A stretch of 21,441 nt of DNA from the IMG/VR virus record IMGVR_UViG_3300030328_003952, positions 1 to 21,441 of that record; one strand, given 5' to 3'. The position numbers and the translations under genes were made by a program. Positions 8,553 through 20,622 of this stretch are shown piece after piece. The stretch's first letter is position 1. Every line of letters starts with the position of its first letter. The stretch comes from a virus. The notes below the pieces were generated by a model. That model did no database searches. It had not been told where the DNA came from and was given only the letters and a program-made list of their open reading frames with translations.

Positions 8553-10127
8553 TTATGATATTATCCAACTTTTTGCTGTTCTTTTAGGTTTATACCATCT
8601 TGGTTTATTTTCTGACTTATTTTGTTTATAATTAGGGGGAAAAGCATGTAAATTAGCATAATATAATCCCTCAATTGTATCATCATGAGCCATTCTTGGT
8701 CCAAATGTAATGATTTCGTTAATTAAATCAAACATATTTTCTTTAAAATATAATGAACCTACACTAAAGATACCAGATAAACCTGAATAAATTCTATTTC
8801 TTTTTTGTGTACCTCCTGGTTTCTCAGGAATGACACTAATATCATATCTGTTTATTCGTCTTCTTTCGTCATTCAATGCTTGAAAAATACTACGATTCAT
8901 AGCTACATCTTCTACCGTTGCTTGTTTACAATTGTATTTTTTATATAATTCTATAATATAATCTACTACTCCCTTTTTATCCATAATAGAACCATCAACA
9001 TTTTTAGTTCCTAACGTAGGAATACTTCTATGCCTTTCGTATTCTAATACATATCTATTATTATTTGCATCAACTGCTATTACCATTATCACACTAAAGT
9101 CTGATTCTTTTGTATCAATATCTGTAGCTGGGTCGCATCCTATAAAAGTATTAACAGGAGTCTTCTGCCCATCATTGATAATATATCCAATTTTATCATC
9201 TTTATCATATTCATAATATCCTTCCCAATATTTAATATGTTTTTGTGTCCAAACTGAATCTTCTTCAGATTGTACCTGCATCATATACTCTTGATAGAAT
9301 TTTGATGGAGTACCACTATCTTGATAGAATTTCTTTTTTTCTTCTAACTTAGAAAGAGGAAACCATCCAGGCCACAAAGAGCTGCCATCTGGCAATATTG
9401 CTTTATATGTAATTACTCTCCACGCAAAATCGTCTTTACCTTTTTTTTGACGTTCGTAATTAATGATAAGATTATTGATGAAGCTATCATAATGCACAGG
9501 AGTACCATTAACCCGAAGCCTACCAGTATGAGGCTCGATAGCAGGATAAACCACAGCAGTAACGAGGTTAGAGTTTTTACTACGTGCTTCAGCTGTAATC
9601 GTGTTTGCTTCATGTTCGAAGTCATCGAGAATAATAAGGTCGTACCTCTTATGTAATTTAGCCCCTCCTCGAATCCCTGCAACATTCGATTTACTAATGA
9701 GCTTACATCCATTTTGTAATTCAACATCTTCTTCTGTCCATTTCTTTCCTTTCAAATTACCAAAGTAATATTTTATTTTATCGTTATATTCAAAGTGATA
9801 TTTAATATAGTCCATATTACCAGTACTCAGTTTTTGTGTCGCAGATACCCATGCATAAAATAGCATATCATCTTTTGGACAAAAACAAAAGTCCTTAATA
9901 ATTGAGCATTTTGTAAGCACAGTTTTCCCGTGACCACGAGGCAAAATAACCGCTAGTTGTTTTACTTCTGGGTTATCAATAGCATCAGCCATCTCATAAT
10001 GAAATGCTGGAGTTTCGCTTCGCATAAAATCGTCTGGTAAAAATAATTTACCAAAAGCAATCATATCCTTACTTGCTAGCTGTAGCGCTTCTTCTGCTTT
10101 GCTTACGTTTTGACTGTTTATGTTCAA
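8553..10127 (-). CDS. terL: Terminase large subunit (TerL)
   Basis: 524 residues carrying both catalytic domains. ATPase: Walker A PRGHGKT (63-69), Walker B LIILDDFE (164-171) with the catalytic Glu, and motif III 'RVNGTP' (205-210). Nuclease: first Asp in 'GCDPATD' (D332), second acidic group in 'VEDVA' (E407/D408) and the third in 'MAHDDT' (D482/D483), the RNase H-like triad that cuts concatemers. It docks on the portal and pumps DNA. The chosen start is TTG at 10127, with AAGGAA 6 nt upstream, because it keeps the usual N-terminal helix and 'AFGKLFLPDDF'. An ATG at 10064 just after the upstream gene's stop is the alternative. With the TTG start the gene overlaps its upstream neighbour by 59 nt. 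Confidence 0.95.
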   Translation of the reverse strand: MNINSQNVSKAEEALQLASKDMIAFGKLFLPDDFMRSETPAFHYEMADAIDNPEVKQLAVILPRGHGKTVLTKCSIIKDFCFCPKDDMLFYAWVSATQKLSTGNMDYIKYHFEYNDKIKYYFGNLKGKKWTEEDVELQNGCKLISKSNVAGIRGGAKLHKRYDLIILDDFEHEANTITAEARSKNSNLVTAVVYPAIEPHTGRLRVNGTPVHYDSFINNLIINYERQKKGKDDFAWRVITYKAILPDGSSLWPGWFPLSKLEEKKKFYQDSGTPSKFYQEYMMQVQSEEDSVWTQKHIKYWEGYYEYDKDDKIGYIINDGQKTPVNTFIGCDPATDIDTKESDFSVIMVIAVDANNNRYVLEYERHRSIPTLGTKNVDGSIMDKKGVVDYIIELYKKYNCKQATVEDVAMNRSIFQALNDERRRINRYDISVIPEKPGGTQKRNRIYSGLSGIFSVGSLYFKENMFDLINEIITFGPRMAHDDTIEGLYYANLHAFPPNYKQNKSENKPRWYKPKRTAKSWIIS

Positions 10128-10311
10128 CTTTTTCCTTGTGTAATTTTTCCATATATTTCTTAAGCTTATCTTCGTCTTTATTCATACGAATATACTTATC
10201 AATAATATTATCCATCATCATTGCATGCTGTTGTAACATTTGTATTTCCATAGCCATAGATTTTATAGCTCTTAGTATATCATGCTTTGTTAGACTTTTC
10301 TTATTTTTCAT
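10069..10311 (-). CDS. Small basic coiled-coil protein
   Basis: 80 residues, Met-, Lys- and Gln-rich. Residues 8-60 are likely one or two long helices (ILRAIKSMAMEIQMLQQHAM; KLKKYMEKLHKEKVEHKQ). The C-terminus is very basic and Ser-rich (SKRKQSRRSATASK), suggesting nucleic-acid contact. Start: ATGA overlap with the stop of the preceding 46-aa ORF, with a purine-rich AGGGGG upstream. The 3' end runs 59 nt into the TerL frame if TerL starts at TTG. No family recognised. Location between TerS and TerL suggests a packaging accessory role, but that is only inference. Confidence 0.6.
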   Translation of the reverse strand: MKNKKSLTKHDILRAIKSMAMEIQMLQQHAMMMDNIIDKYIRMNKDEDKLKKYMEKLHKEKVEHKQSKRKQSRRSATASK

Positions 10312-10448
10312 CCTTGCCCCCTGCTTCTTTTTTTATAGTATTTAGGACTAAGTTTATTTCCATACTTAGTATTATTGCTCATACCTTGTCTGGTTTTTTT
10401 CTTTGTCTTAACCCTCTTTTCAAATCCTCCGAATATTCTTCTTCTCAT
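10308..10448 (-). CDS. Tiny basic protein, 46 aa
   Basis: The frame begins at ATG 10448 and reads MRRRIFGGFEKRVKTKKK..., ending in 'KYYKKRSRGQG' before TGA, which overlaps the next ATG (ATGA). About 40 percent of residues are Lys or Arg. Short 'KxYRGQG'-ended basic ORFs of this sort are common, unannotated passengers near terminase and head genes in environmental phages (from memory of the pattern, not a search). It starts one base after the TAA of the 22-aa ORF, consistent with reinitiation; its own Shine-Dalgarno site is weak. It may bind DNA or RNA. Confidence 0.55.
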   Translation of the reverse strand: MRRRIFGGFEKRVKTKKKTRQGMSNNTKYGNKLSPKYYKKRSRGQG

Positions 10449-10517
10449 TTATTTCTTCTTTTTTCTTTTTTTTGGTCTACCGACTTTACCGCCGTATGTT
10501 CCTGGTCCTTTTGGCAT
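10449..10517 (-). CDS. Tiny basic protein, 22 aa
   Basis: A 22-codon frame beginning MPKGPGTYGGKVGRP and ending in a run of Lys/Arg (PKKRKKKK). It has a good ribosome site (GGGAG about 8 nt before ATG) and begins one base after the phosphoesterase stop. 'MPKGxGTYGxKVGRPxKK' is a motif I associate with very short phage ORFs in packaging regions. The close fit of start, site and neighbours argues that it is translated. The C-terminus looks like a DNA-binding or nuclear-localisation-type basic tail. Function unknown. Confidence 0.6.
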   Translation of the reverse strand: MPKGPGTYGGKVGRPKKRKKKK

Positions 10518-10518
10518 T

Positions 10519-11403
10519 TTAATTCTCCCAACAGTTTATTCTATCTTTAGTAAATTCCATAGTAATCCAACCCGTACGTTGAATCCCATAGAAGCTATAA
10601 CGAGCATAGTCTGCATATCTGAGGAACGACCCTCCTCTTACATACCATTTACGCTTTAGACTTTCTTCTCCATCTTCTATTGTTAATGAATCTATTGGTT
10701 TACAATACAACTGGTGGTTATGTCCTAAAAAGTAAACATCTCCATCAGAATATACTGAAGCCATCTGATTCAATTCCATGTCTCCATTTTTAGCTCCACT
10801 CTTTCCGTGTCCACTAACTAGAAACCAATCTTTTTCCCCAATAGTAATTTGAGAATATCCTGGCAATCTAAAATATGGAACATCCATTTCACTTGCTAAT
10901 GTTTTACATACATCAAAATCTAGTATATTAAAACTTCTTAGATAGTCGTGATTCCCTCCTCTTACAAATAGGCATTTATCTTGTATGGGTTGAACAAGCT
11001 TTAAAAAACTTAAATATTGTTCTTCTGGTGGGATGCCTTGTCCCCTTTGATTTATTTTATAATTAGGGGGAATCAGTTCTATCATATCTCCATTCCCAAA
11101 CCATCGTGCATTCGGGTCTTCATATATAATTTTGATTGCCTCTTGAAATTTCTTTAAATCAAATTCATTTGCTCCAACGTGTATATCAGTTAATCCATGT
11201 ATTCGTAGTTTCTCATCACTCTTTACTTGGAATAGTTTTCCAGGCTCTATGTGTTTCTTATCATACTCTTTTACATCTGAAGGTATAGGAATAGAAAACC
11301 ATTTACCGCAAGACTTACAACTAAATTGCTGCTTTACAGTTTCTTTGTTTCTCTTCTTACCCTCTTTTTTTGTTAACATGCTACTGCAATGTGGACAAAT
11401 CAT
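10519..11403 (-). CDS. Calcineurin-like metallophosphoesterase with N-terminal zinc ribbon
   Basis: 294 residues. A zinc ribbon is formed by C3-x2-C6 and C29-x2-C32. The phosphoesterase core follows with every metal-binding motif visible: D73-x-H75 (LTDIHVG), GNGD (D106), GNHD (150-153), H199 (SGHGKSG) and GHNH (227-230). The family uses two metal ions to hydrolyse phosphomono- or diesters; in phages some members process DNA ends or RNA, but the substrate cannot be read here. The zinc ribbon suggests nucleic-acid binding. It overlaps the TerS stop by 4 nt (ATGA), with AAGGAGG upstream, so it is translated with TerS and precedes TerL. A packaging or DNA-end processing role is inferred from this position. 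Confidence 0.88.
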   Translation of the reverse strand: MICPHCSSMLTKKEGKKRNKETVKQQFSCKSCGKWFSIPIPSDVKEYDKKHIEPGKLFQVKSDEKLRIHGLTDIHVGANEFDLKKFQEAIKIIYEDPNARWFGNGDMIELIPPNYKINQRGQGIPPEEQYLSFLKLVQPIQDKCLFVRGGNHDYLRSFNILDFDVCKTLASEMDVPYFRLPGYSQITIGEKDWFLVSGHGKSGAKNGDMELNQMASVYSDGDVYFLGHNHQLYCKPIDSLTIEDGEESLKRKWYVRGGSFLRYADYARYSFYGIQRTGWITMEFTKDRINCWEN

Positions 11404-12179
11404 TTATCCTCCTTGGATGTTTTTTCTGGAAGTATAGCTCTTGAGGCTCCTTCTATTTCATCAGGACTAAACCCTTGGAACATTCCTACGACTCCAGTTT
11501 CTATTTTCTTAACTTGATTACCTAATGTACCAATTGCTTTCCCTAATTCCTTTAAGGACTGCAATGCTATATTTTGGTCTTCGCTTGTATCTGCTAACTG
11601 CTTTAGGGAACCTAATATATATGCATGGTCAATTCCTAGTTGTTTAGCGATTTCTTTTGAAGTTTTTTCAATTTCGCTCATTACTCTCTCCTGTTTAAGT
11701 AAGACTACTGCTTTTTTTCTAGCCTTACCTTGGTTTGCTTCTGAAAATGCTTTCATATATGCACTTACTGCATCTTTTCCTACTGCCACGCTCGTGGCAA
11801 AAATTTTTTCTCTGTTTGTACAATTCGACCTCTCCTTTACCCTAGAGGAAGTATTCTTGATTTTGGTGCTAAATGTGTAACGATTCGGGTGTTTCTCAAA
11901 GTCCGTATCCATATTAGTTTTCTTAGAATTAATAAATGTTCCAACTATAGTTCTTACATACCCTTTAGATTGTTTATAGTTTTTAGAATCTTTTGGATGA
12001 CTAAGTTTATCAGACACTTTAAGGAGTTGAACAATACGTTTATCATCACTCAAAACCCAATCTCCCTCCTTTGCATCTCTCCATTCGGAGTGAAGTATCC
12101 CTTTGGGATGGTCCTTTAAAAACTCTTCTTTTGTATCATAGACGTAATGTCTTTTATTTCTAATTTTTTTACTTTCCAC
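11400..12179 (-). CDS. terS: Terminase small subunit (TerS) with extra N-terminal domain
   Basis: 259 residues. Residues about 118-225 read like terminase small subunits: 'TNREKIFATSVAVGKDAVSA' then 'YMKAFSEANQGKARKKA', a long helix with 'LLKQERVMSEIEK', and an oligomerisation-type helical segment 'IALQSLKELGKAIGTLG'. This is the helix-turn-helix plus 'vaxyIxxxxxxxA' layout of Terminase_2-like proteins, which recognise the packaging site and regulate TerL. Residues 30-85 form a separate beta-rich domain (EGDWVLSDDKRIVQLLKVSD; YVRTIVGTFI). The best start is GTG at 12179, overlapping the upstream gene by 11 nt; no ATG or strong ribosome site is nearby, so coupling is likely. Confidence 0.75.
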   Translation of the reverse strand: MESKKIRNKRHYVYDTKEEFLKDHPKGILHSEWRDAKEGDWVLSDDKRIVQLLKVSDKLSHPKDSKNYKQSKGYVRTIVGTFINSKKTNMDTDFEKHPNRYTFSTKIKNTSSRVKERSNCTNREKIFATSVAVGKDAVSAYMKAFSEANQGKARKKAVVLLKQERVMSEIEKTSKEIAKQLGIDHAYILGSLKQLADTSEDQNIALQSLKELGKAIGTLGNQVKKIETGVVGMFQGFSPDEIEGASRAILPEKTSKEDK

Positions 12180-12444
12180 GTTTTGCTAATTGTTTATGCA
12201 ATGACTCAATCAAATACATAACATCCTTGTGAACCCAATGTTTTATTCCATTGATTTCTATAGGTACACTATTTGTTCCCTCGGCAGCATCGGCTTCATC
12301 GTCTATAACCGTCATTATATGCTCTTCGTCTTCTAGTTCTTTAGTTAAGATGCGCTCTAGTTTAACTAGTTTCTCAATTTGACCTAAAATACGCTCTTGG
12401 TCCTCAAGAGGAAGTTTACTTAACCAATTAATTGATGTACCCAT
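12169..12444 (-). CDS. Small acidic helical protein, unknown
   Basis: 91 residues. Residues 8-45 are a likely coiled coil with heptad-like Leu/Ile spacing (LPLEDQERILGQIEKLVKLE; RILTKELEDEEHIM). An acidic loop (DDEADAAEG) follows, then a short beta segment 'PIEINGIKHWVHKDVMYLIE' and a final helix. No catalytic or metal motif. The site AAGGAA lies about 9 nt before ATG at 12444. The stop overlaps the GTG start of TerS, so the two are probably coupled. No family recognised; a TerS partner or regulator is possible from position alone. Confidence 0.6.
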   Translation of the reverse strand: MGTSINWLSKLPLEDQERILGQIEKLVKLERILTKELEDEEHIMTVIDDEADAAEGTNSVPIEINGIKHWVHKDVMYLIESLHKQLAKRGK

Positions 12445-12477
12445 ACATTTTTTCCTTGACTAACCTAATAAAACACT

Positions 12478-12514
12478 TTATCTTAGATAGCTACTAGCAG
12501 CTACTTATAGATAA
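12478..12514 (-). promoter_or_regulatory. Two-part stem-loop between the first two late genes
   Basis: Outer arms TTATCT (12478-12483) and AGATAA (12509-12514) and inner arms TAGCT (12488-12492) and AGCTA (12499-12503) give an 11-bp interrupted stem with a 6-nt loop. It lies in the 77-nt gap after the first late gene. All pairs are Watson-Crick, so it could form in either strand or as a DNA cruciform. No U-tract follows in the leftward direction. It could be a processing site, a partial terminator or a protein site. Confidence 0.45.
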
Positions 12515-12521
12515 TAGTAGA

Positions 12522-12716
12522 TTATGTAGATTTCTTTTTCTTTGGTTCTTTCTTTTTCTTTAATTGTTTACTTTGCTCTTCTTTTATTTTTAGAATTGCA
12601 GTAGCTAACAATTTTTCATTCATCTCTTGTTCTTTACGAACCTTATCTTCATATTCTTTTCTAGCTACTCCAGTAAGAGCAGAGCCACCACCTAAATCTT
12701 TACTAGTTATCGTCAT
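12522..12716 (-). CDS. First late gene: small Lys/Glu-rich protein, 64 aa
   Basis: A longer open frame reaches ATG 12818, but the start at 12716 is preferred because AAGGAG stands 6 nt before it and the extra N-terminus would cross the control region. The product begins MTITSKDLGGGSALTGVARK, a Gly/Ser-rich segment, then one highly charged helix (EYEDKVRKEQEMNEKLLATA...) and a poly-Lys tail (KKKKEPKKKKST). No membrane segment and no known motif. As the first gene of the leftward operon it could be a regulator or DNA-binding accessory protein, but nothing in the sequence proves that. Confidence 0.6.
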   Translation of the reverse strand: MTITSKDLGGGSALTGVARKEYEDKVRKEQEMNEKLLATAILKIKEEQSKQLKKKKEPKKKKST

Positions 12717-12748
12717 ACAGACTCCTTTGTTTACATCTAATCTAAGCA

Positions 12749-12766
12749 TACCCCATGTTATTTGCA
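12749..12766 (-). promoter_or_regulatory. Candidate leftward (late operon) promoter
   Basis: On the minus strand, TTGCAA (12766-12761) is followed by ATAACATGGGGTA (12761-12749) and then TAGATT 17 nt after the TTGCAA box. Two readings are possible: TTGCAA as -35 with TAGATT as -10, or AATAAC as a -10 with initiation near GGGG. The motif ATAACATGGGG also occurs on the plus strand at 13393-13403 upstream of another gene. It lies 33-50 nt upstream of the first late start codon. No terminator-like or coding explanation competes here. The exact boxes are uncertain. Confidence 0.4.
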
Positions 12767-12793
12767 ACAAAAAATTGTAGCATTTTGAAGTAG

Positions 12794-12807
12794 CCCTATA
12801 TATATAC
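12794..12807. repeat. 14-bp repeat CCCTATATATATAC, copy 1
   Basis: Exact 14-bp match to 13370-13383. Both copies lie in non-coding DNA upstream of rightward genes and close to an ATAACATGGGG motif. The repeat may be part of a promoter or a protein-binding site. On the plus strand TTGTAG lies 16 nt before the TATATA of this copy, which would also pass as a weak promoter. Confidence 0.55.
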
Positions 12808-12827
12808 ACCCACCCCATGGTAATGGG

Positions 12828-12856
12828 TTTATGATATATAACGTTTACGTTATAAA
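12828..12856 (+). promoter_or_regulatory. Candidate rightward (early) promoter
   Basis: TTTATG (12828-12833) and TATAAA (12851-12856) are separated by exactly 17 nt, a sigma-70-like layout with a good -10 and a poor -35. The start of the first rightward gene lies 52 nt after the -10. A perfect palindrome covers the spacer and the -10, so the promoter is probably controlled by a repressor or by autoregulation. Confidence 0.5.
12837..12854. promoter_or_regulatory. Palindromic operator candidate
   Basis: TATAACGT-TT-ACGTTATA is a perfect 8-bp inverted repeat with a 2-nt spacer. It overlaps the -10 box of the rightward promoter in the divergent control region. This size and symmetry suit a dimeric helix-turn-helix repressor. 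No such regulator was recognised in the window. Confidence 0.6.
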
Positions 12857-12908
12857 TTAATTTAAATTAAATCGAGTCAACAGCTACAGTCGTAGCAAGG
12901 AGAAAAGA

Positions 12909-13262
12909 ATGGAAAACATTCAAAAGGAAACTCAATCTAGTAAATCAACTAAGGAGCAGATAGCAGAATTAGAAGATGAAATTAGATTAAAAAAGCTTCA
13001 AGCCAATGCAGATCTAGGTGATAAATACATGGAAGAAGCTAAGAAGCACGTATCAGTTTCTAAAGAAGAGATACGTACAGGTAGAAATGGTCTTAAGTAT
13101 GTTATTAAACGTGATGCTAGAGATATTTCTAAAGACCATAATAAGAAGAAGATTCTTGTTACAGGTTTATATCAGAATGCAGTAAGTGCATGGAATGGTG
13201 ATTTAAATGTACAAACTGAGGAAGAGGAACTAAAAGAAATAGAAGCTAATATGAATGGTTAG
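12909..13262 (+). CDS. First rightward gene: charged coiled-coil protein
   Basis: 117 residues. Residues 10-45 form a probable coiled coil (KSTKEQIAELEDEIRLKKLQ). The middle is basic (RTGRNGLKYVIKRDARDISK) and the C-terminus acidic (EEEELKEIEANMNG). No membrane segment or metal motif. AAGGAG lies 7 nt before ATG. The gene stands alone between the palindrome-controlled promoter and a terminator, so it forms a one-gene transcript. That isolation is typical of an early regulator or host-takeover protein, but the sequence shows no known DNA-binding domain. Confidence 0.7.
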   Translation: MENIQKETQSSKSTKEQIAELEDEIRLKKLQANADLGDKYMEEAKKHVSVSKEEIRTGRNGLKYVIKRDARDISKDHNKKKILVTGLYQNAVSAWNGDLNVQTEEEELKEIEANMNG

Positions 13263-13278
13263 CAACTATAGAACAATG

Positions 13279-13308
13279 AGGTGTCTTAGGGCACCTTTTT
13301 GTTTTTTT
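13279..13308 (+). terminator. Intrinsic terminator
   Basis: AGGTGTC (13279-13285), loop TTAG and GGCACCT (13290-13296) form a 7-bp stem with one G-U pair, followed by TTTTGTTTTTTT. It lies 17 nt after the stop of the first rightward gene and should end its transcript. Confidence 0.88.
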
Positions 13309-13369
13309 ATATGATATTACTTATTGATTATGCGAAAACGGGGAATCAATGGGAGTATTAGAGTTATTA

Positions 13370-13406
13370 CCCTATATATATACTAAATGTGTATAACATG
13401 GGGATA
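13370..13406 (+). promoter_or_regulatory. Candidate second rightward promoter with repeated motifs
   Basis: After the terminator, a second copy of CCCTATATATATAC (13370-13383) is followed by TGTATAAC (TATAAC at 13392-13397, with an extended TG) and the motif ATAACATGGGGATA (13393-13406). The same ATAACATGGGG is found on the minus strand at 12761-12751 before the late operon. The element probably starts the transcript for the genes from 13455 on. Confidence 0.5.
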
Positions 13407-13454
13407 AACTAGAATTAGAATTACTTTAACCTATAAACTACATCGGAGGTATGT

Positions 13455-13610
13455 ATGTATATTAGATTAGAGAAGTCCTTGAATGATTCTTATCTTAGAA
13501 TAAGCTATCAAGGCAATGGTATGTGGTATTATCGTTGGAATGGTTTAGTTCCAGATGATAATGTTGATACTTGGACTATGATTGATATAGTCCTAGCCTT
13601 TCTTAATTGA
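13455..13610 (+). CDS. Small protein, 51 aa, unknown
   Basis: ATG at 13455 with GGAGGT immediately upstream (13445-13450) opens a 51-codon frame: MYIRLEKSLNDSYLRISYQG..., then an aromatic stretch 'GMWYYRWNGLVPDD' and 'TWTMIDIVLAFLN' before TGA. An earlier ATG at 13451 stops after four codons. The protein looks like a small alpha/beta domain with many Trp/Tyr residues; no membrane span is clear. It is the first gene after the second promoter. No homologue recognised. Confidence 0.6.
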   Translation: MYIRLEKSLNDSYLRISYQGNGMWYYRWNGLVPDDNVDTWTMIDIVLAFLN

Positions 13611-13616
13611 GAGGCT

Positions 13617-13629
13617 TTAGACAAATTAG
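13617..13629 (+). repeat. Direct repeat TTAGACAAATTAG, copy 1
   Basis: Exact 13-bp match to 13802-13814, flanking the structured block A. A shorter form, TTAGACAA, recurs at 14976-14983 at the end of block B. Confidence 0.6.
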
Positions 13630-13801
13630 GTGAAGCTTATACCTCTTATGGGCGTTCGTAGACTATGTCAAGTAGTTGAAACGTAAAGAGTCTTAGATTT
13701 AGCACAGGGTGCTTAAGTCCAGTTACGGGAGATTTAAGACGAATGAAATATTTGCACAAATCGAACATATAAATCCAGGCATTAACGTATAAGTGTAGCC
13801 A

Positions 13802-13814
13802 TTAGACAAATTAG
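13802..13814 (+). repeat. Direct repeat TTAGACAAATTAG, copy 2
   Basis: Second copy of the 13-bp repeat, followed by the leader ATAGAAAAGAGGTAAA and ATG of the gene at 13840. The same leader sequence precedes the gene at 15010. Confidence 0.6.
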
Positions 13815-13839
13815 ATAAATAGATAGAAAAGAGGTAAAA

Positions 13840-14112
13840 ATGAATATTGAATATGTAATACTTATAGTAATGCTTTCATCATTATTAGCATACTATATTG
13901 GTGCTTATTATGGTGAGAAGACAGGAAATGACCTTGGCGAAAGTCAAGCTATATGGAATAGATATAGACAAGAGTTAGAAATATGTCATTTAAAGTGGGA
14001 GAGTGGATATAAATGTAATTGTCCTACTAAAGATGCAAAAAGAAATTGTAATCATTACTTATGGGATGAATTATATTCTGATATAAAGAGAGGTTATTAT
14101 GACTTATCATGA
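13840..14112 (+). CDS. Small membrane-anchored Cys-rich protein
   Basis: 90 residues. Residues about 4-24 (EYVILIVMLSSLLAYYIGAY) are a single N-terminal membrane segment. The rest would lie on one side of the membrane and holds Cys/His residues at C49, H50, C59, C61, C70 and H72 (CHLKWESGYKCNC; KRNCNHYLW), a spacing that could bind one metal ion. The site GAGGT lies 6 nt before ATG. It overlaps the next gene by 14 nt. The membrane segment and Cys cluster are visible; function is unknown. Phage early membrane proteins of this size often act on host envelope or exclusion, which is only a general analogy. Confidence 0.65.
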   Translation: MNIEYVILIVMLSSLLAYYIGAYYGEKTGNDLGESQAIWNRYRQELEICHLKWESGYKCNCPTKDAKRNCNHYLWDELYSDIKRGYYDLS

Positions 14113-14290
14113 ATTAGGATATGAACGTAGAGATAGATTGTTTAGTGATTATAGAATACTATATAAACAATACTATGGAACATCTATGAGTGATTTACAG
14201 ATGCGTAAGTTATTAACTAATAATATAACTGATAAAGATTTAAAAATACGTATCAAAGCATTAACAATGTTATTAGAATTAAATGATTAA
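14099..14290 (+). CDS. Small basic helical protein, 63 aa
   Basis: 63 residues, starting inside the end of the previous gene, with GAGAGGT upstream. It has a Tyr-rich N-terminus (YHELGYERRDRLFSDYRILY), then 'SMSDLQMRKLLTNN' and a final helix (KDLKIRIKALTMLLELND). Helical content is high and the charge is mixed. No known domain. Block B, a long non-coding stretch, begins at its stop. Confidence 0.6.
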   Translation: MTYHELGYERRDRLFSDYRILYKQYYGTSMSDLQMRKLLTNNITDKDLKIRIKALTMLLELND

Positions 14291-15009
14291 TTATAGTAGG
14301 TGGATAGATATCGCAGTTCCAGCATCTATAATGTGAAGGGGCGAGACTCTACTTAATATCAGTTGGTAGTATATCTCATTTACCTCGTCTTGTCCCTTTG
14401 ATTTAAAGAATTAGATAGTATAGAAAGTCAATATTTGAGCGTTAGATAAAATGAATTATGTGTAGATGATAGATTTTGTCATACAGATTAAGCATAATAC
14501 GTATTTGTCAATTTGGTTTTGGTAACAAGACCTATCCGAGTGAAAACGTGAACTTGTATAAAATCTTTAATACAAGCATTATTATATTTATACTAGTATA
14601 ATGAACGGAAATAGCAAGGTGGCATTAATCAAATAAGCACACATGTTAAATAGAGATGTTAGTAGCACTAACAGCATGAGGTTAAGAGCCTGTTGTGAGA
14701 TTAGTTTCACAAGTTATGCTATCTAAATATTATTGAAATATAAAGAATTAAAATACGGCTATATTAGTGGATAACAATGTAACATCATGCATAATCCACC
14801 TTGAGGCAATTGGATATCTAATGTATATCTGAGTAGTTAGGCAATGGTCAAATGACTGAGCAAACCTATGTCAATCAAGATACCTACAAAATGCGAGACG
14901 CGCAGATGTATCATATAGGTATTGTAGGGGGATAGCTTCCCAATGCGTAATCCTACTGTAGACGTATTTTAATATTTAGACAATAAACCAAAATAGAAAA
15001 GAGGTAAAG
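14291..15009 (+). ncRNA. Structured non-coding block B, about 720 nt
   Basis: No gene is supported across 719 nt; stops occur frequently in all rightward frames. Clear stems: GAAGGGGCGAGAC (14335-14347) with GTCTTGTCCCTTT (14387-14399), 13 bp with three G-U; CTTGTAT/ATACAAG (14553-14559, 14570-14576); TGTTAGT/ACTAACA (14657-14663, 14667-14673); AGCAT/ATGCT (14673-14677, 14716-14720) enclosing TTGTGA/TCACAA (14693-14698, 14707-14712); ATACCT/AGGTAT (14880-14885, 14917-14922) enclosing GCG/CGC; GTAGG+GGGA with TCCC+CCTAC (14924-14932, 14938-14941 and 14952-14956). AGGTGGAT (14298-14305) is complementary to ATCCACCT (14794-14801), nearly 500 nt away. Short stems arise by chance in AT-rich DNA; the 13-bp stem and total length are the firm points. 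It might be a large ornate RNA of GOLLD or ROOL type, or a new one. Confidence 0.45.
14976..15006 (+). repeat. Repeated leader: TTAGACAA ... ATAGAAAAGAGGTAAA
   Basis: TTAGACAA (14976-14983) and the 16-nt ATAGAAAAGAGGTAAA that ends 1 nt before the ATG at 15010 also occur in the same order and place before the ATG at 13840. Both copies join the end of a structured block to a gene start. It includes the Shine-Dalgarno site and may mark a processing or boundary element. Confidence 0.55.
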
Positions 15010-15570
15010 ATGAAGAAGAAAGATTGGAAGACATACTATTGTATGCATTCAGGTTGTAAGAAATATAGATATCATAAAAGACTTAAATTATGTTTTAAAC
15101 ATTATCAAAGACTATATCTTAAAAATAGAGATGCATTTAAAGAAGCTAAAGCTAAATCAATAGAACAAGTTAAAAGTTATACTATTGAAACATCAGGTAG
15201 AGAATTTAAACACGACCCTAAACATTATAGAGATTTAAAGAGATTTAAAATTAAATATAAATATATGGAAGAGTGTATTTTATTAGTTAAATGGCAACAA
15301 GAATATGATGAAGCCGATGAAAAGAAACGAAAGATTATAGAAGCTAGAAAAAGATATATAATCAGAAGTAAATATAATAGGCTTAGTCCAGACTTATTAA
15401 GTAACTTTGACAATAGTTCTGATATAAACTATCAAGTTGTTAAAGATTATAAAGAACATATTAAGTATTTAGAAGCGTTTGACTGGAGAACTAGAACTGT
15501 TCTTAAAGGTAGAAATAAAATGAAATACTTATCACAAATGAAAAAAGAAGAAGAGGAAGAAGAATCATGA
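15010..15570 (+). CDS. Basic zinc-finger protein
   Basis: 186 residues, strongly Lys/Arg/Tyr-rich. The N-terminal C11-x4-C16-x11-C28-x2-H31-Y pattern (YCMHSGCKKYRYHKRLKLCF) matches a zinc-binding motif found in phage HNH nucleases and other phage DNA-binding proteins (C-x4-C...LC-x2-H-Y-x-R). No HNH catalytic motif follows; the remainder is helical, with basic segments and an acidic tail (KKEEEEEES). It probably binds nucleic acid. The start has GAGGT 6 nt upstream, in a 16-nt leader identical to that of the gene at 13840. The stop overlaps the next gene's ATG (ATGA). Confidence 0.65.
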   Translation: MKKKDWKTYYCMHSGCKKYRYHKRLKLCFKHYQRLYLKNRDAFKEAKAKSIEQVKSYTIETSGREFKHDPKHYRDLKRFKIKYKYMEECILLVKWQQEYDEADEKKRKIIEARKRYIIRSKYNRLSPDLLSNFDNSSDINYQVVKDYKEHIKYLEAFDWRTRTVLKGRNKMKYLSQMKKEEEEEES

Positions 15571-15803
15571 ATGAATCAAGAAAAAGATTATTAAATATAG
15601 TTGATAAATTCAATCAATATAGACTAGAACCAATGTCAACAGGAGATGAATGGGAATTTTATAACTATGAACCTAAAGCAGGTCATATTGTTAATGCATT
15701 TGCAAGTTATCGCTTATCACATCCTTTGGTAAGATGGTATTACAAGATTAAAGATTTATTTAATTGGAGAATTAAGATAAGATTATATAAAGGAGATGAA
15801 TAA
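15567..15803 (+). CDS. Small protein, 78 aa, unknown
   Basis: 78 residues. An N-terminal helix (SRKRLLNIVDKFNQYRLEP) is followed by an aromatic, acidic loop (GDEWEFYNYEPKAG) and a basic C-terminal part (VRWYYKIKDLFNWRIKIRLY) that looks amphipathic. No clear membrane segment. Both ends overlap neighbours: ATGA at the start, TAATG at the end, so it is translated in a coupled series with the genes around it. No family recognised. Confidence 0.55.
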   Translation: MNESRKRLLNIVDKFNQYRLEPMSTGDEWEFYNYEPKAGHIVNAFASYRLSHPLVRWYYKIKDLFNWRIKIRLYKGDE

Positions 15804-15955
15804 TGCAAGAATATTGGTATGATGCTGATACAGATATGATTTATTATAGTTGTCTCACATTTGTAGAATATTGGCAATTAATAATTTTTACATTGTTAAT
15901 ATGGGAATTTATTAAATATTTATATAGGAGATTAAAATATTATGTTAAGATTTAG
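15803..15955 (+). CDS. Small membrane protein, 50 aa
   Basis: A 50-codon frame opens at ATG 15803 (TAATG overlap with the previous stop), with AAGGAG 8 nt upstream. It reads MQEYWYDADTDMIYYSCLTF..., then one membrane segment (YWQLIIFTLLIWEFIKYLY, about 24-42) and a basic tail (RRLKYYVKI). The negative N-terminus and positive C-terminus suggest the tail faces the cytoplasm. It overlaps the following gene by 14 nt. No family; holin-like size, but far from the lysis genes. Confidence 0.55.
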   Translation: MQEYWYDADTDMIYYSCLTFVEYWQLIIFTLLIWEFIKYLYRRLKYYVKI

Positions 15956-16208
15956 ATATGGTAAAGATACTCAGACAGTTAAGATATTAAGACACTTAAG
16001 AAAATATGGTAATATCACTAGCCTTGATGCATTTGAATTATATCGTGTAACTAGGCTAAGTTCAATAATACATAGACTTAGACATACTGAAGGCTTTGAT
16101 ATAGATATGAGAAGAGTTCAACATAAAGAAGCAAATTTTGGTAAATATGTATTAGAAGATACTCAAAACAATAATCAGTTATTTTATGATTATAGAAGAT
16201 TAGTATAA
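15942..16208 (+). CDS. Winged-helix-like small DNA-binding protein
   Basis: 88 residues, basic. The segment 'QTVKILRHLRKYGNITSLDA' followed by 'FELYRVTRLSSIIHRLRHTEG' and 'FGKYVLE' reads like a winged helix: helix 1, 'GxITSxdA' turn, helix 2, recognition helix 'TRLSSIIHRLR', then a beta wing. This matches the phage 'LxxLxxxGsITsxeAxxxxgitrLsaRIxxLR' family of helix-turn-helix proteins. It may regulate transcription, possibly through the control-region palindrome, but no link is shown. The site AGGAG is rather far (12 nt) from ATG. Structured block C follows it. Confidence 0.7.
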   Translation: MLRFRYGKDTQTVKILRHLRKYGNITSLDAFELYRVTRLSSIIHRLRHTEGFDIDMRRVQHKEANFGKYVLEDTQNNNQLFYDYRRLV

Positions 16209-16351
16209 TAATTAGGCACGGGACTAGGGTGTCATCTATTCATCCGTTATGACATGAGGGACAAAAATATACATTTCATAAAAGTCCCGTTCAGCCTGAA
16301 TAGGTGTTGTATTTAACCTGAAATATGTTTATATTGTAGACGGAGGAATCA
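16209..16351 (+). ncRNA. Structured leader block C with pseudoknot
   Basis: P1: ACGGGACT (16218-16225) pairs perfectly with AGTCCCGT (16283-16290), extended outward by AGGC/GCCT (16214-16217, 16294-16297) across a 3-nt bulge. P2: TGTCAT/ATGACA (16230-16235, 16249-16254) sits inside P1. The P2 loop bases CTATTCA (16236-16242) are complementary to TGAATAG (16297-16303) beyond P1, giving a pseudoknot of 6-7 bp. A competing hairpin pairs GGGAC (16258-16262) with GTCCC (16284-16288) and would break P1. The 3' end leads into the ribosome site GGAGG of the nuclease gene at 16352. A pseudoknot plus a mutually exclusive helix is the usual layout of a riboswitch or cis-regulatory RNA; no known class is recognised. 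Confidence 0.55.
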
Positions 16352-17080
16352 ATGATAGATATACCAAAAATATATAACGATTACTTAGAAAAACTACGCC
16401 ATGAAAATAGAGAAAAATACTCTAAACATCGTGGTTGGTTTTCAGCTAGTGCAGCTGGTAGTTGTTTTAGAAAGCAATTGCACAGAACACAAGATTTACC
16501 ACTAGAACCAATGGATGAAAAATCTAATAGATTATTAAGACTTGGAACTCTAGTACATGCAGACTTTGAAAAATCACTAGACAAGTATAAAGAGAAAGGT
16601 TTAGAAGTTGTTACAGAACACCGAATAGAGATACCTGAGCTTAATGTAGTAGGTCATCTGGATGTAGGAGTTGTAAACAAACAAACAGACAAGATACACG
16701 TCTATGATATTAAGACTGCAGGAGCATGGAAATGGAGAATGAAGTTTGGTAGAAATCCAGACAAGAATCCTTCAGTTAACTATGAATTACAATTAGCTAC
16801 TTATGGAATGGGTTTAGGTAATGAACATGATATTACTGATGTAAACTTATCTATAATGTGGTATAATAAAGATAGTTCTATGATGAGAGAAGAAAATATA
16901 TCTAATCTTTACATAGAAGAAGCATTTGACTACTGGACTGAACTTAATGAAGTGCAAGAGAAAGTAGACAATGAGCCTGAACAGTTAAAACCTGGGACTA
17001 TGAATGTTCCTGTATATAATTGGGAATGCAAATATTGTGAATTTCAGGGCAAACATTGTCCTGGTTTATATAGTGTCTAA
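16352..17080 (+). CDS. PD-(D/E)XK nuclease, Cas4/RecB-like, with Fe-S cysteines
   Basis: 242 residues. The nuclease core is visible: 'RLGTLVHADFE' (63-73, with H69), D104 in 'GHLDVGV', D119-x-K121 in 'YDIKTAG' and Q147 in 'YELQLATYG'. These are motifs I-III and the QxxxY motif of the RecB/Cas4 exonuclease family. Four cysteines placed as in Cas4, AddB and Dna2 (C38 near the N-terminus; C226, C229 and C236 near the C-terminus) should bind a 4Fe-4S cluster. It probably resects phage DNA ends to give single strands for the annealing protein encoded downstream. GGAGG stands 6 nt before ATG, behind structured block C. No Cas1/Cas2 genes or array are present, so a CRISPR role is not indicated. Confidence 0.87.
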   Translation: MIDIPKIYNDYLEKLRHENREKYSKHRGWFSASAAGSCFRKQLHRTQDLPLEPMDEKSNRLLRLGTLVHADFEKSLDKYKEKGLEVVTEHRIEIPELNVVGHLDVGVVNKQTDKIHVYDIKTAGAWKWRMKFGRNPDKNPSVNYELQLATYGMGLGNEHDITDVNLSIMWYNKDSSMMREENISNLYIEEAFDYWTELNEVQEKVDNEPEQLKPGTMNVPVYNWECKYCEFQGKHCPGLYSV

Positions 17081-17104
17081 ACTATATAATACGGAGGAAC
17101 TTAG

Positions 17105-17326
17105 ATGAAAGATAAAAAACTAGAATGTAGTATATGTGGAGGAGAACATGATGACCCATACGGACATAATGCTGAGCCTATTAATAATGGAAAGTGTTGT
17201 AGTGTGTGTAATTCTGATGTGGTGCTCCCAACGAGAATAAGACTTATGTTTAACGACAAAGATGCAACAGTAGCTGAAGATATAATAGCTAAAATTAAAC
17301 AATTTAAAAAGAGATATGGAGGATAA
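17105..17326 (+). CDS. Zinc-ribbon protein, phage CxxCG-PYGHNAxPI-CCxxCN type
   Basis: 73 residues. Cys pairs C8-x2-C11 and C31/C32-x2-C35 frame the sequence 'DPYGHNAEPINNGKCCSVCN', a pattern seen in a widespread small phage zinc-finger protein (CxxCG...YGxNAxPIxxGxCCxxCNxxVVxxR). The C-terminal part is helical and basic (KIKQFKKRYGG). Probable single zinc site; the partner is unknown, with nucleic acid or protein both possible. GGAGG lies 7 nt before ATG. The next gene's best ribosome site is inside its final codons, so the two are coupled. Confidence 0.75.
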   Translation: MKDKKLECSICGGEHDDPYGHNAEPINNGKCCSVCNSDVVLPTRIRLMFNDKDATVAEDIIAKIKQFKKRYGG

Positions 17327-17330
17327 TAAA

Positions 17331-17954
17331 ATGGGATTTGATTTATATGGTGAAAACCCTAAGAATAACGCAATGGAAGATGATTTAAACAGAAGAGAAG
17401 AATTAGATAGATTGTGGGAAGATGATAAAATAACTGATGAACAGAAAGAAGAATATTTTGAATTACAAAAACAGTTAAGAGAGACTAATCCAGGTGATTA
17501 TTTTAGAAATAATGTTTGGTGGTGGAGACAAATGTGGAATTTTGTTTGTAATGCTTGCGAAAATGTATTAACTGAAGAAGATATGGCTGGTGGTTCATTT
17601 AATGATAATCATTTGATTTCAGAAGAGAAAGCATTAGCTATGGCTGATTTATTAGATGTATTAATAGAAGACGGAACAGTTGATGCTATTGAAAAAGATG
17701 TAATGGCTGGAGTTGAAAAAGCAAGAATAATTAATGAAGCAATATCTAAAGAAAAGGAAGAATTACGAGAAATTGTTCGTAAAGCTACTGGTAAAGAAGA
17801 TATAGCACCTATTGATTATCCAGAAGACTTTAGAAAACTTTGGGATAAACTAAATGACAAAGAAGATTGGGCTGGAAGATACCCTTTCGCTAAAGAGAAT
17901 GTAATACAATTTTCAAAATTTTGTAGACAATCAGGAGGATTTAGAATATGTTAA
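17331..17954 (+). CDS. Conserved phage protein of the 'MGFDLxGxNP...YFRNNVWWWR' family
   Basis: 207 residues from the ATG at 17331, chosen because GGAGG lies 8 nt upstream and family members begin MGFDLxGxNP. Conserved-looking parts are 'GDYFRNNVWWWRQMWNFVC' (in the first third), 'EEDMAGGSFNDNHLISEEKA' (middle) and the C-terminal 'VIQFSKFCRQSGGFRIC'. I recall this layout in many phage and some bacterial proteins of unknown function. No catalytic motif is obvious. Compared with the family, a charged helical stretch (about 125-160) near the middle may be an insertion. It overlaps the next gene by 7 nt. Confidence 0.72.
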   Translation: MGFDLYGENPKNNAMEDDLNRREELDRLWEDDKITDEQKEEYFELQKQLRETNPGDYFRNNVWWWRQMWNFVCNACENVLTEEDMAGGSFNDNHLISEEKALAMADLLDVLIEDGTVDAIEKDVMAGVEKARIINEAISKEKEELREIVRKATGKEDIAPIDYPEDFRKLWDKLNDKEDWAGRYPFAKENVIQFSKFCRQSGGFRIC

Positions 17955-18193
17955 AAGTTACAAATAAAAATAATTATGAAATAGTTGGAGACGGAAAAGA
18001 TAAAAATCCAATAAACAAAATATACAAAGATGAATGGATAGCATTTCTTGAAGTTAGACAAGATGGACAATATAATATGTATAGCCCTGAAGCTAGAAAT
18101 AGTGTTGATATGGATAGAGATACTTGGGCACAAATTATGGATAACTTTGATGATTTGTATGAAAAATGGGGGGATTTAAATGAGTGCGTTTAG
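17948..18193 (+). CDS. Small acidic protein, 81 aa, unknown
   Basis: 81 residues, acidic overall, beta-rich first half (LKVTNKNNYEIVGDGKDKNP, IAFLEVRQDGQYNMYSPEA) and a helical end (TWAQIMDNFDDLYEKWGD). It starts within the end of the previous gene and ends 14 nt into the annealing-protein gene, so it belongs to the same coupled set. GGAGG lies about 9 nt before ATG. The sequence resembles small phage proteins with an 'LEVRxxGxxNMxxP' strand, but no function is known. Confidence 0.6.
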   Translation: MLKVTNKNNYEIVGDGKDKNPINKIYKDEWIAFLEVRQDGQYNMYSPEARNSVDMDRDTWAQIMDNFDDLYEKWGDLNECV

Positions 18194-18782
18194 TGTATTA
18201 AGTAAAATAGATGTAAGTGAACATACAGAAAAGAAAGGTAAATTTACTTATCTTTCTTGGGCTTGGGCAGTTAGAATATTATTAGAAAACTTTCCAGAAG
18301 CAACGTGGCGTGTACATACATTTGCAGATGTGGTTAACACAGAATCACCTTATATGCGTACTGATGCTGGTGCATTTGTACAAGTAACAGTAACTGTAAA
18401 TGAGATAGAAAGAACACAAGTACATCCAGTATTAGACCACATGAATAAAACTGTAGTAGAACCTAATGCTTTTCAAGTAAACAATTCAATACAACGTTGT
18501 TTAGCTAAAGCAATATCTCTACATGGATTAGGATTATATATCTATGCTGGTGAAGATTTACCACAAGCTCCAGATGCATTAAATAAAGAGCAATACAAAT
18601 CAATGTTAAATTTACTTGGTATTATTGCTGATAAGGATTTGGAAGCAAAAGTAGTTGAACAAATTGGTAATGAAACTATCAATGACTCTAACTATAAAGC
18701 GGCTTTTAATAAATTGAAGCGTAAAGCTGATAAAGTAAAAAAAGCAATAGATGAACTTGATGAAAAGAGAGCAGCTAAATGA
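18180..18782 (+). CDS. Single-strand annealing protein, Sak3/DUF1071-like
   Basis: 200 residues. The opening 'FTYLSWAWAVRILLENFPEA' with 'KKGKFTYLSWAWA' before it, then 'YMRTDAGAFVQVTVTVNEIE' and 'VNNSIQRCLAKAISLHGLGL' match the DUF1071 (Sak3) family of phage recombinases, which anneal complementary DNA strands with help from SSB. The final 70 residues are charged helices typical of the C-terminal SSB-interacting region. It lies two genes upstream of the SSB and a short distance downstream of a PD-(D/E)XK nuclease, so the three form a resection-annealing set. Start chosen at ATG 18180 with GGGGGA upstream; its stop overlaps the next ATG (ATGA). Confidence 0.87.
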   Translation: MSAFSVLSKIDVSEHTEKKGKFTYLSWAWAVRILLENFPEATWRVHTFADVVNTESPYMRTDAGAFVQVTVTVNEIERTQVHPVLDHMNKTVVEPNAFQVNNSIQRCLAKAISLHGLGLYIYAGEDLPQAPDALNKEQYKSMLNLLGIIADKDLEAKVVEQIGNETINDSNYKAAFNKLKRKADKVKKAIDELDEKRAAK

Positions 18783-19048
18783 AACTAAGTGAAATAAATA
18801 AACCAAAAGAAAACTATAGAGATGAACTATATCAGACAAATAATAGTTATACTATTGGAGTAAATGATGGTAAAGAGTTTCGTAATGCAGTATTTACAGG
18901 AACTAAACTATATCATGGAAAGCCAATGCTAACATTTGTTATGAAAACAACTGATGACTTTGCTAGGAATAATTATATTAATTTAAATATTAATCAAAGT
19001 TATTTGTCTTATAGTATTGAAGAACCTAAGGAGGAAACAGATGGGTAA
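18779..19048 (+). CDS. Small protein, 89 aa, unknown
   Basis: 89 residues. The central part is beta-rich: 'NSYTIGVNDGKEFRNAVFTG' then 'TKLYHGKPMLTFVMKTTDDF', ending 'NLNINQSYLSYSIEEPKEE'. The pattern of short strands suggests a small OB-like or beta-barrel fold, but no motif supports this. It starts by ATGA overlap with the annealing-protein gene and ends 8 nt into the next gene. As part of the annealase-SSB run it could be a recombination accessory, an inference from position only. Confidence 0.6.
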   Translation: MKLSEINKPKENYRDELYQTNNSYTIGVNDGKEFRNAVFTGTKLYHGKPMLTFVMKTTDDFARNNYINLNINQSYLSYSIEEPKEETDG

Positions 19049-19310
19049 ACTAACAATAAAACAAGCTACGGACTTATTAGAAAAAGGCATTTTAACAAAT
19101 TCGCAATTTGAAGAAATGAGAAATAATGGAGAAATAAGTGCAGGTAGAGGAGTCAATCGTAGATATATTAAAACAGAAGATAATACTTGGGTATCACCTA
19201 TGTTATATTTTGCTGGACTCAAAGGAGCAAAGTATTCTAAAGAGATGACTGAGCTTAAACATAAAATAAATGAACTAATCATTGAACATACAGAAGGGGA
19301 AATGAAATGA
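19041..19310 (+). CDS. Small basic protein, 89 aa, unknown
   Basis: The ATG at 19041 is preferred over one 24 nt upstream because AAGGAGG is positioned 7 nt before it. The product reads MGKLTIKQATDLLEKGILTN, then 'SQFEEMRNNGEISAGRGVNR' and 'ELKHKINELIIEHTEGEMK'. The first half looks like a helical pair with a possible helix-turn-helix ('TIKQATDLLEKGILTNSQFE'), the C-terminus is a single helix. Overlaps both neighbours. No known family. Confidence 0.6.
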   Translation: MGKLTIKQATDLLEKGILTNSQFEEMRNNGEISAGRGVNRRYIKTEDNTWVSPMLYFAGLKGAKYSKEMTELKHKINELIIEHTEGEMK

Positions 19311-19870
19311 AAGAAGTAAATGCAATATATAACGAAAAAGATAATGATTTTACACCAGTAGCTGAAGCAACTTATCCAGCTCACGTTAGTAAATTTGAAT
19401 CTAGTGAATACAATGGAAGTACAGTATTCAATTTAACTTTTCGTGTTGCTGATGAAGCAAGTAAACTAGAAGTACCTAAATTAACTAAAGATAACAATGA
19501 CAATTATGTACCAACAGGTGAAACTATTAGTGCAGCATATGTTACAGGTAGAGAATACAGAGTTGATAAAGGTGTATGGTTAACACCTAATCCTAAAGAA
19601 GGAGAAGGTTGGAAGAACAAAAGATACAAAGAATTCTTTGAAGGAATAAATGTAAAGTTCCCTTCAGATAAAGAAGGAAATGTAGTTCTTGGTGAAGTAG
19701 AAGAATCAGATGTAATTGGTTTTCCTTGTTTAATAGAATTAAGAGAAACAAGTTTTACTAATAAAGATGGAGAAAAGAAAACATCTTTAAAAGTTACAAA
19801 TGTTCACCCTTGGGATGATGGAGATAAATTATCCTCAGAAGAGGTAGAAGCAGATGATTTGCCATTCTAA
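19307..19870 (+). CDS. Single-stranded DNA-binding protein (SSB-like)
   Basis: 187 residues. The body is beta-rich with strands such as 'TVFNLTFRVAD' and 'GFPCLIELRETSFTN', consistent with an OB fold. The C-terminus is acidic and ends EEVEADDLPF, closely matching the SSB tail (DDDIPF), whose final Pro-Phe recruits partner proteins. It would coat single-stranded phage DNA and help the annealing protein two genes upstream. Sequence similarity to E. coli SSB is not evident in the body, so the call rests on tail, fold pattern and context. A 6-bp hairpin (TGCCAT/ATGGCA) carries its stop codon in the loop, and structured block D follows. Confidence 0.82.
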   Translation: MKEVNAIYNEKDNDFTPVAEATYPAHVSKFESSEYNGSTVFNLTFRVADEASKLEVPKLTKDNNDNYVPTGETISAAYVTGREYRVDKGVWLTPNPKEGEGWKNKRYKEFFEGINVKFPSDKEGNVVLGEVEESDVIGFPCLIELRETSFTNKDGEKKTSLKVTNVHPWDDGDKLSSEEVEADDLPF

Positions 19871-20249
19871 ATGGCATATGTTGCGAGAGTAAGTTAAAGT
19901 GTCTTTTATCTAGTTTATATTCGGTTATCTACTAGATTATTAGGCACTTAACTTATAAGATTTGAGGATTCCATTTGCAACGAAGCTATATAGAGTCGAT
20001 GGGATAGCTAATCCTCAAAAAATTAGAGAATAAAGGGAGAGCGAAATAAAATGCGAAACTCCACCAGTACGTACGACAACGTAATATAAATGTCATGTGG
20101 GATTACTAATTCCCTTTGTTTTCTAATCATTATTTTGTAAATTATATGAGGGCTTGTTTTACGCTTTGGTCCAGGAATTCCAAACGGATTCTATGGAAGA
20201 AAAGTTGAGAAAGGTTGGCTACCCAAGCCCTTATATATAAGGAGGTATC
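19860..20249 (+). ncRNA. Structured non-coding block D with long helices and a pseudoknot
   Basis: From the ssb stop to 20249 no gene is supported. Helices: TGCCAT/ATGGCA (19860-19865, 19871-19876). P1 AAGTTA(a)AGTG/CACTTAACTT (19891-19901, 19945-19954), enclosing ATCTAGT/ACTAGAT (19908-19914, 19931-19937). P2 TTTGAGGATT/AATCCTCAAA (19961-19970, 20010-20019), enclosing AGCTAT/ATAGCT (19984-19989, 20004-20009). Pseudoknot: 19879-19887 with 19974-19982, 9 bp with three G-U, into the P2 bulge. P3: 20022-20039 with 20110-20127, 18 bp, enclosing CCAC/GTGG and TACGT/ACGTA. P4: TATATGAGGGCTTG/CAAGCCCTTATATA (20143-20156, 20224-20237), 14 bp, ending 3 nt before AAGGAGG. G-U pairs in P3 and P4 make the fold plus-strand specific. 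No known RNA class is recognised. Confidence 0.65.
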
Positions 20250-20435
20250 ATGGATAAACTTAAACAAGCACAAGAATTGTTGCGTATTAATACTGTCTGG
20301 AATAGAATTATACAACGTATAAAAATAAATCTAGGAATAGATTCAAATGAAAAACCAGTAAGTAATGATATGATAGATTTTATTGTGAAAGACGAATGGG
20401 AAAAAGAAAATGAACGAAGCAGTAATAACAATTAA
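20250..20435 (+). CDS. Small charged helical protein, 61 aa
   Basis: 61 residues, starting MDKLKQAQELLRINTVWNRI. The N-terminal two thirds are helical and basic (IIQRIKINLGIDSN); the end is acidic and then Ser/Asn-rich (KDEWEKENERSSNNN). A strong AAGGAGG site stands 4 nt before ATG and just after the 14-bp helix P4 of block D, so translation may depend on that RNA. The 3' end overlaps the next gene by 26 nt. No family known. Confidence 0.6.
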   Translation: MDKLKQAQELLRINTVWNRIIQRIKINLGIDSNEKPVSNDMIDFIVKDEWEKENERSSNNN

Positions 20436-20622
20436 ACTAAGTGACAATGAAATAGGATTATTAATAAATAGTCTTGGCATGCTAGAGTCAGCAGTTGTCC
20501 CTTGTGTAGATAATGGGAAATGGAAAGTACCATATGAAACATTAAAGAAAGACTTAAAAGAAATACAAGTAAAAGTAATAGAAAAAAGAAGAGAACATGA
20601 AATTAAAGAAAATATGAGGTAA
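20410..20622 (+). CDS. Small protein, 70 aa, unknown
   Basis: 70 residues. It has a beta-type start (EAVITIKLSDNEIGLLINSL) and a long basic helix at the end (YETLKKDLKEIQVKVIEKRR). The 'IxLSdnEixlLixsL' opening resembles small phage proteins of unknown function that form a helical hairpin. It starts inside the previous gene with a weak site (GGGAAAAAG). The stop lies 2 nt before the next ATG. Confidence 0.55.
   Translation: MNEAVITIKLSDNEIGLLINSLGMLESAVVPCVDNGKWKVPYETLKKDLKEIQVKVIEKRREHEIKENMR

Follow-up and report, generated by a model that had tools for sequence, protein, structure and literature searches.

The gap behind the ssb-like gene of an uncultured marine phage carries an undescribed structured RNA composed of four separable domains, P1 to P4, two of which, P2 and P3, are portable units that comparison of relatives predicts to be closing stems around compact H-type pseudoknots, the internal helices of P2 being invariant. 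We are confident of this anatomy and of the portability of the modules. As to their function, the best reading overall, which we adopt tentatively and at just under an even chance, is that of a cassette of independent, co-transcribed RNA domains 3' of ssb that act in cis on the mRNA.

The window, i.e. the whole stretch of 21,441 nucleotides analysed here, is a 21.4-kb IMG/VR fragment with genes for terL, portal and a Sak-type annealing protein. Its TerL has hundreds of relatives among viral contigs and is only ~22-25% identical to those of the best-listed cultured phages, which include Roseobacter, Lentibacter and Methylophilales phages; in the cultured phages searched, neither the gap DNA nor the ssb protein found a match. 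The product of the ssb-like gene has no PHROG or Pfam match. Its AlphaFold (AF2) model has a pLDDT of 72 and Foldseek ranks bacterial SSBs first, with a best E of 5.6e-4 and low TM-scores; therefore it is likely, short of proof, that the gene encodes a single-stranded-DNA-binding protein. One contig among the relatives (L067/L079; 111,116 bp; also L175 and L182) has two copies each of terL and ssb and is probably two phages joined or a mis-assembly.

On the + strand the gap (19871-20249) folds with a minimum free energy of -115.9 kcal/mol (z -6.15, none of 100 shuffles equally stable), and it is the most structured among the gaps of the window. As the - strand reaches -85.9 kcal/mol and a z of -3.3 versus shuffles, the rightward RNA is favoured, in agreement with the first-pass annotation. 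The gene-free stretch and the four successive domains that it had described were also recovered (Table 1, the limits of P1 being approximate); the gap holds short chance ORFs only, none of annotated size, and a protein encoded there was rejected since no ORF exceeds chance size. A DNA-level element that folds only incidentally, such as an origin or a site for packaging or recombination, could draw on the replication-type gene upstream and on the - strand, which too folds better than shuffles, and yet the G-U pairs and the difference between strands favour RNA, all copies are co-directional and the modules are dispensable and change gaps, making such an element very improbable. The packaging or replication RNA suggested earlier finds no support either, given that natural phages can do without the optional modules.

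Table 1. Features of the gap and its flanking genes (window coordinates).
Feature	Position	Strand	Description
ssb-like gene	19307-19870	+	187 aa; SSB-type tip DDLPF at C-terminus; constant upstream neighbour of the RNA array
Hairpin over ssb stop codon	19860-19876	+	7 bp, UGCCAUU-CUA-AAUGGCA; ACCAUU..AAUGGU in L108 is a compensating change
P1	19890-19955	+	optional nested-stem module, apical UCGGUUAUCUACUAG; covarying variants in L102, L104, L107, L108
P2	19961-20019	+	portable 59-nt module; 10-bp closing stem enclosing H-type pseudoknot
P2 pseudoknot helix a	CCAU 19971-19974 x AUGG 19999-20002	+	descriptor match, 0 in 20 shuffles; pairs invariant
P2 pseudoknot helix b	AGCUAU 19984-19989 x AUAGCU 20004-20009	+	descriptor; pairs invariant
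P3	20023-20126	+	portable 104-nt module; 16-bp closing stem, small GC hairpin, conserved GCGMAACUCCAC, H-type pseudoknot
P3 pseudoknot helix a	UCCAC 20060-20064 x GUGGG 20097-20101	+	comparison of relatives
P3 pseudoknot helix b	GUAAU 20081-20085 x AUUAC 20102-20106	+	compensatory changes across relatives
P4	20143-20237	+	constant module; 13-bp closing stem, inner arm, GGU(UGGCU)ACC hairpin before 3' arm
Shine-Dalgarno AGGAGG of next gene	20240-20245	+	2 nt past P4 stem
ORF61	20250-20435	+	small protein downstream of gap; no PHROG or Pfam match; has relatives

The gap RNA is undescribed in Rfam: at the curated gathering score, the families of release 15 (riboswitches, ribozymes, GOLLD, ROOL and phage pRNA among them) gave 0 matches in the window and 0 in eight related loci, and at a relaxed threshold (E<=5) the gap gave only a chance match to a microRNA (E 2.1) and no ribozyme. 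A scan of 19871-20249 for an intrinsic terminator (a GC hairpin with a U tract) found none. The sequence TTTTGTAAATTATATG, before P4, was considered as a repeated phage promoter and rejected, as the weight matrix picks that site alone in each phage (five sequences), the next best scoring far lower.

Relatives of ssb were gathered from viral contigs and the DNA past the ssb stop codon was read in each; these relatives represent few lineages, and the counts given here are of sequences, not of independent events. P4 is constant within the ssb/ORF61 clade, being found in all 16 distinct sequences aligned. In the A4 alignment of these 16 sequences (RNAalifold) the 13 pairs of its closing stem are unbroken in every one and six pairs show covariation in the form of two-sided changes. 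The covariance model of P4 was strong in 15 of 26 records, with one site each, at the ssb locus. From the stem to the Shine-Dalgarno sequence the spacing is 2-3 nt in 15 of 16 relatives and 7 nt in the remaining one (L004).

Covariation is likewise seen in P3, both in its closing stem and in pseudoknot helix b. The latter appears as AGUGAA:UUCACU in L107, as AGUAAA:UUUACU in L104 and L108 and as AAUGAA:UUCAUU in L103 and L136, amounting to two-sided changes at three of six positions when blocks are set by hand and at two positions when MAFFT aligns the sequences, the short L103/L136 rows then being misplaced. The closing stem has two-sided changes as well, and the covariation score of P3 was reached by none of 500 shuffles, a control that ignores relatedness. 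The P3 covariance model (R1) scores 98 bits in the window. Pattern matches in L192, L193, L195, L196 and L199 have neither a closing stem nor a covariance-model match and were set aside as chance. Neither P3 nor P4 has a second locus in the same phages; each occupies a single one.

The set of modules is far from fixed. The gap past ssb is shortest in L013, at 104 nt, and longest in L004, at 621 nt, and four relatives (L006, L009, L011 and L012) have only P4 and a small hairpin. In L001, whose ssb DNA is 98.6% identical, P3 is gone and the base of its stem remains, whereas L002 and L015 are without P2 through a clean deletion of ~61 bp. Two unequal copies of P3 stand in tandem in L102; a different unit, X (GGGGUC..GACCCC), lies upstream of P4 in L103, L136 and L139; and L004 and L005 carry long inserts that are unrelated. 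P1 is absent from L006-L012, L103, L136 and L139. By these differences, P1 to P4 are separable units. The ssb gap of L005 (5559-6216) is another modular array, with three copies of a UUAGURC...GAGRUGAGU motif (by eye) and ~50 nt in common with L004.

This variation also bears on the 9-bp pseudoknot that the first-pass annotation had drawn from 19879-19887 into the P2 loop. Three relatives (L102, L104 and L107) have P2, at 98-100% identity, without the upstream GUUGC, and two (L002 and L015) retain the GUUGC partner and yet are without P2, indicating that the long-range pairing is not conserved; the H-type pseudoknots inside P2 and P3 had not been described.

In all relatives examined that have ssb, the array follows the gene on its 3' side, the region 3' of ssb having been read. 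Among relatives with less than 60% ssb identity the downstream gene differs, and most retain structure in the post-ssb gap (z about -2 to -5; the fold is weak in L113, the stretch is too short in L119 and six further loci lie outside the count). As the downstream gene varies while the gap stays structured, ssb is the constant neighbour. The near-constant distance of P4 from the ribosome site would suit a cis-regulator that senses a ligand or protein, either a riboswitch or an autoregulatory site bound by SSB, for which phage T4 offers a model in gp32, described as repressing the translation of its own mRNA (PMC535899). We consider such a regulator improbable: the array is 3' of ssb rather than in its leader, the downstream genes vary among phages, the GGUUGGC units found near the 3' arm in L124-L126 and L182 do not always stand beside a start codon (those of L124-L126 being the case in point), and P2 and P3 also occur in gaps without this ssb.

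The last point emerges from a scan of viral contigs for the core of P2, which recovered seven contigs; five are ssb gaps and the other two are L185/G040 (44 kb) and L189/G041 (15 kb). An ssb profile search of both gave no match, G041 being partial and G040 having an ORF that is SSB-like by eye only. In G041, P2 and P3 (the latter at 92 bits, E 8e-17) occupy two gaps ~3.2 kb apart. The single large pseudoknotted RNA that had been proposed must therefore be given up, as near-identical phages have lost P2 or P3 one without the other, and another phage has them that far apart. In G040 (8830-20607; L201 and L202) an ORF of 3925 aa borders structural genes.

Within P2 the closing stem, UUUGAGGAUU / AAUCCUCAAA, surrounds CCAU-9-AGCUAU-9-AUGG-G-AUAGCU, with the helices in the order a-b-a'-b'. 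A specific pseudoknot descriptor matches it and has 0 matches in 20 shuffles of the gap. As its pairs never vary, the P2 helices rest on complementarity and the descriptor and not on covariation. Between the window and L102, L104 and L107, P2 is 98-100% identical versus 68-83% for ssb, P1, P3 and P4, an excess that, as judged from these alignments, points to recent exchange or extreme constraint. The G040 copy has one change in the 39-nt core, whereas 7 of the 20 bases of its closing stem, UAUAGGAAUU / AAUUUUUAUA, are changed with all ten pairs kept. That the core is far more conserved than the closing stem points to specific recognition or to catalysis, and less to a fold that need only be stable. 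Small self-cleaving ribozymes usually combine a constant core with a closing stem that varies, and together with the compact pseudoknot and the sense orientation this is what ribozymes cutting the polycistronic mRNA would display; yet the gap matches none of the Rfam ribozymes at a threshold as loose as E<=5, the P2 helices are invariant and no familiar catalytic motif was recognised, so that we hold self-cleavage to be quite unlikely. A P2 match in a Saprospiraceae MAG (L190), lacking both a closing stem and a covariance-model match, was dismissed as chance, and an R3 match in G014 at 23417 (E 0.01) was rejected since the P2 core is not kept.

Movement between gaps is not limited to P2 and P3. 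A 94-bp module, M4, closed by ACTACAGAA/TTCTGTAGT, is found in the ssb gap of L004 and, at ~95% identity, in G005 and G019, where the gap is another one; in G005 strong similarity fades just beyond the closing stem. Module N (GUGAUGGAUUAGCCAGUA) occurs in G001, G003, G005, G019 and G041 with varying neighbours; it has the form GGCGGUGAUGGAUUAGCCAGUA..UAAGCCGCC and shows compensating stem changes (GGUGG/CCACC), its inner stem being AGACUCUAGAGUUU versus AAUUUCUAGAAAUU. All module copies seen are in sense orientation within their operons, supporting a role in the operon's RNA. The proposal of an undescribed structured RNA read rightward stands, given that P4 and P3 covary, that Rfam has no match and that the orientation is the same in every context.

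G005 and G019 also have in common a 378-nt gap (L170, G005 50812-51189; L172, G019 23831-24208) that is strongly structured (z -2.4 to -6.4) and is in part present in G001 and G003. In the window itself, the claim of an otherwise overlapping gene array is correct locally and fails elsewhere, as long gaps separate rightward genes at 13611-13839, 14291-15009 and 16209-16351. About 230 nt of the second of these are shared, at 89%, with a gap in G005 and G019, which marks it as conserved non-coding DNA. As the pseudoknot descriptor matched none of the window's other gaps, these do not as a rule have the P2/P3 topology, although the descriptor also misses the window's own P3 owing to a helix b mismatch at one end. 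At 13384-13411, in the gap that follows the leftmost rightward gene, the window has TGTGTATAACATGGGGATAAACTA, which is conserved in G001 and appears in G003 as TGTGGATAAC (a DnaA-box complement); it is a possible origin.

On the cis-acting cassette that we favour, P4 would be the constant unit, a structured leader directly before the ribosome site of the next gene, and P1, P2 and P3 accessories that are acquired, lost, duplicated and passed on among phages. The modules may serve in cis as rigid folds on the polycistronic mRNA, either nuclease-resistant or nuclease-recognised, which could define where the ssb message ends on its 3' side, how stable it is and how it is kept apart from the message that follows, while P4 could set the processed 5' end or the initiation context of the next gene. 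A cis role in mRNA processing or stability, which we infer at somewhat below even chances, accounts for the location, orientation, interchangeability and dispensability of the modules and less well for the constancy of the P2 core. It is also conceivable, if rather doubtful, that these marine phages draw on a common, circulating pool of small RNA domains, each closed by a stem and several of them pseudoknotted, which pass as exact modules from one intergenic island or phage to another by recombination and plausibly have anti-defence or RNase-blocking functions.

The main rival is that the RNAs act in trans, as decoys or antitoxin mimics released from the transcript to titrate host defence proteins. 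Such decoys would account for module exchange and for the constant P2 core, and the units are indeed accessory, exchanged and once duplicated intergenic pseudoknots with a conserved core and an exchangeable closing stem. P2 and P3 do offer an H-type pseudoknot unit as in type III antitoxin RNA; the loop arrangement is different, and the helix order is unlike that of ToxI as we know it, a' and b' here abutting with a b-to-a' linker of 8-11 nt. Tandem repeats of the 36-nt type are lacking, each unit has a long closing stem, the window holds four different modules, and two similar P3 copies were met only in L102. ORF61 and the next genes have no Pfam match above cut-off, to a ToxN-family toxin or otherwise, although a decoy would not need an adjacent toxin gene, and no host or toxin was matched to the candidate RNAs. 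Precedent exists in the pseudo-ToxI of phage PhiTE, an intergenic phage RNA that acts against ToxN and expands and recombines as a unit (PMC3475682). On balance we regard decoys as unlikely; a ribozyme, a riboswitch or an SSB operator is possible as well, each being weaker as a reading than both cis action on the mRNA and decoys.

New structured-RNA families as such are not rare. To our knowledge, exact pseudoknotted modules that move between gaps and phages are undescribed so far, and a limited check of the literature found no description of them. Stable hairpins also occupy the gaps between co-directional genes of T7, as intercistronic RNase III sites immediately ahead of a ribosome site; RNase III cleavage is putative here, and as far as we know the T7 sites are neither pseudoknotted nor portable. 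The gp32 protein of T4 is an autogenous translational repressor that binds its own mRNA (PMC535899). The gene 32 operator of T4 and RB69 contains a pseudoknot and resembles the present array in linking a pseudoknot RNA to a phage SSB gene; it lies in the gene 32 leader, upstream of the start, whereas the array is 3' of ssb and P2 and P3 are also found where this ssb is absent. GOLLD and ROOL, large structured bacterial RNAs of which some reside in phage or prophage, are single conserved RNAs, in contrast to small exchangeable modules with no Rfam match (Rfam; PMC12286853). The closest likeness is to PhiTE pseudo-ToxI as a phage-encoded intergenic pseudoknot RNA that expands and recombines unitwise, although that RNA consists of tandem short repeats like those of the plasmid antitoxin and here single stem-closed units of several unrelated kinds are found, with no toxin match (PMC3475682). 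As the modules are only 59-110 nt long, these hypotheses are open to cheap tests by in vitro transcription. Phage genomes are scanned for protein cassettes and hardly for RNA cassettes; if RNA modules are exchanged like genes, the "empty" gaps of phages would be a source of undescribed pseudoknots, each module a ready probe for some RNase, defence protein or catalytic activity, and the whole an RNA counterpart of accessory protein-gene cassettes.
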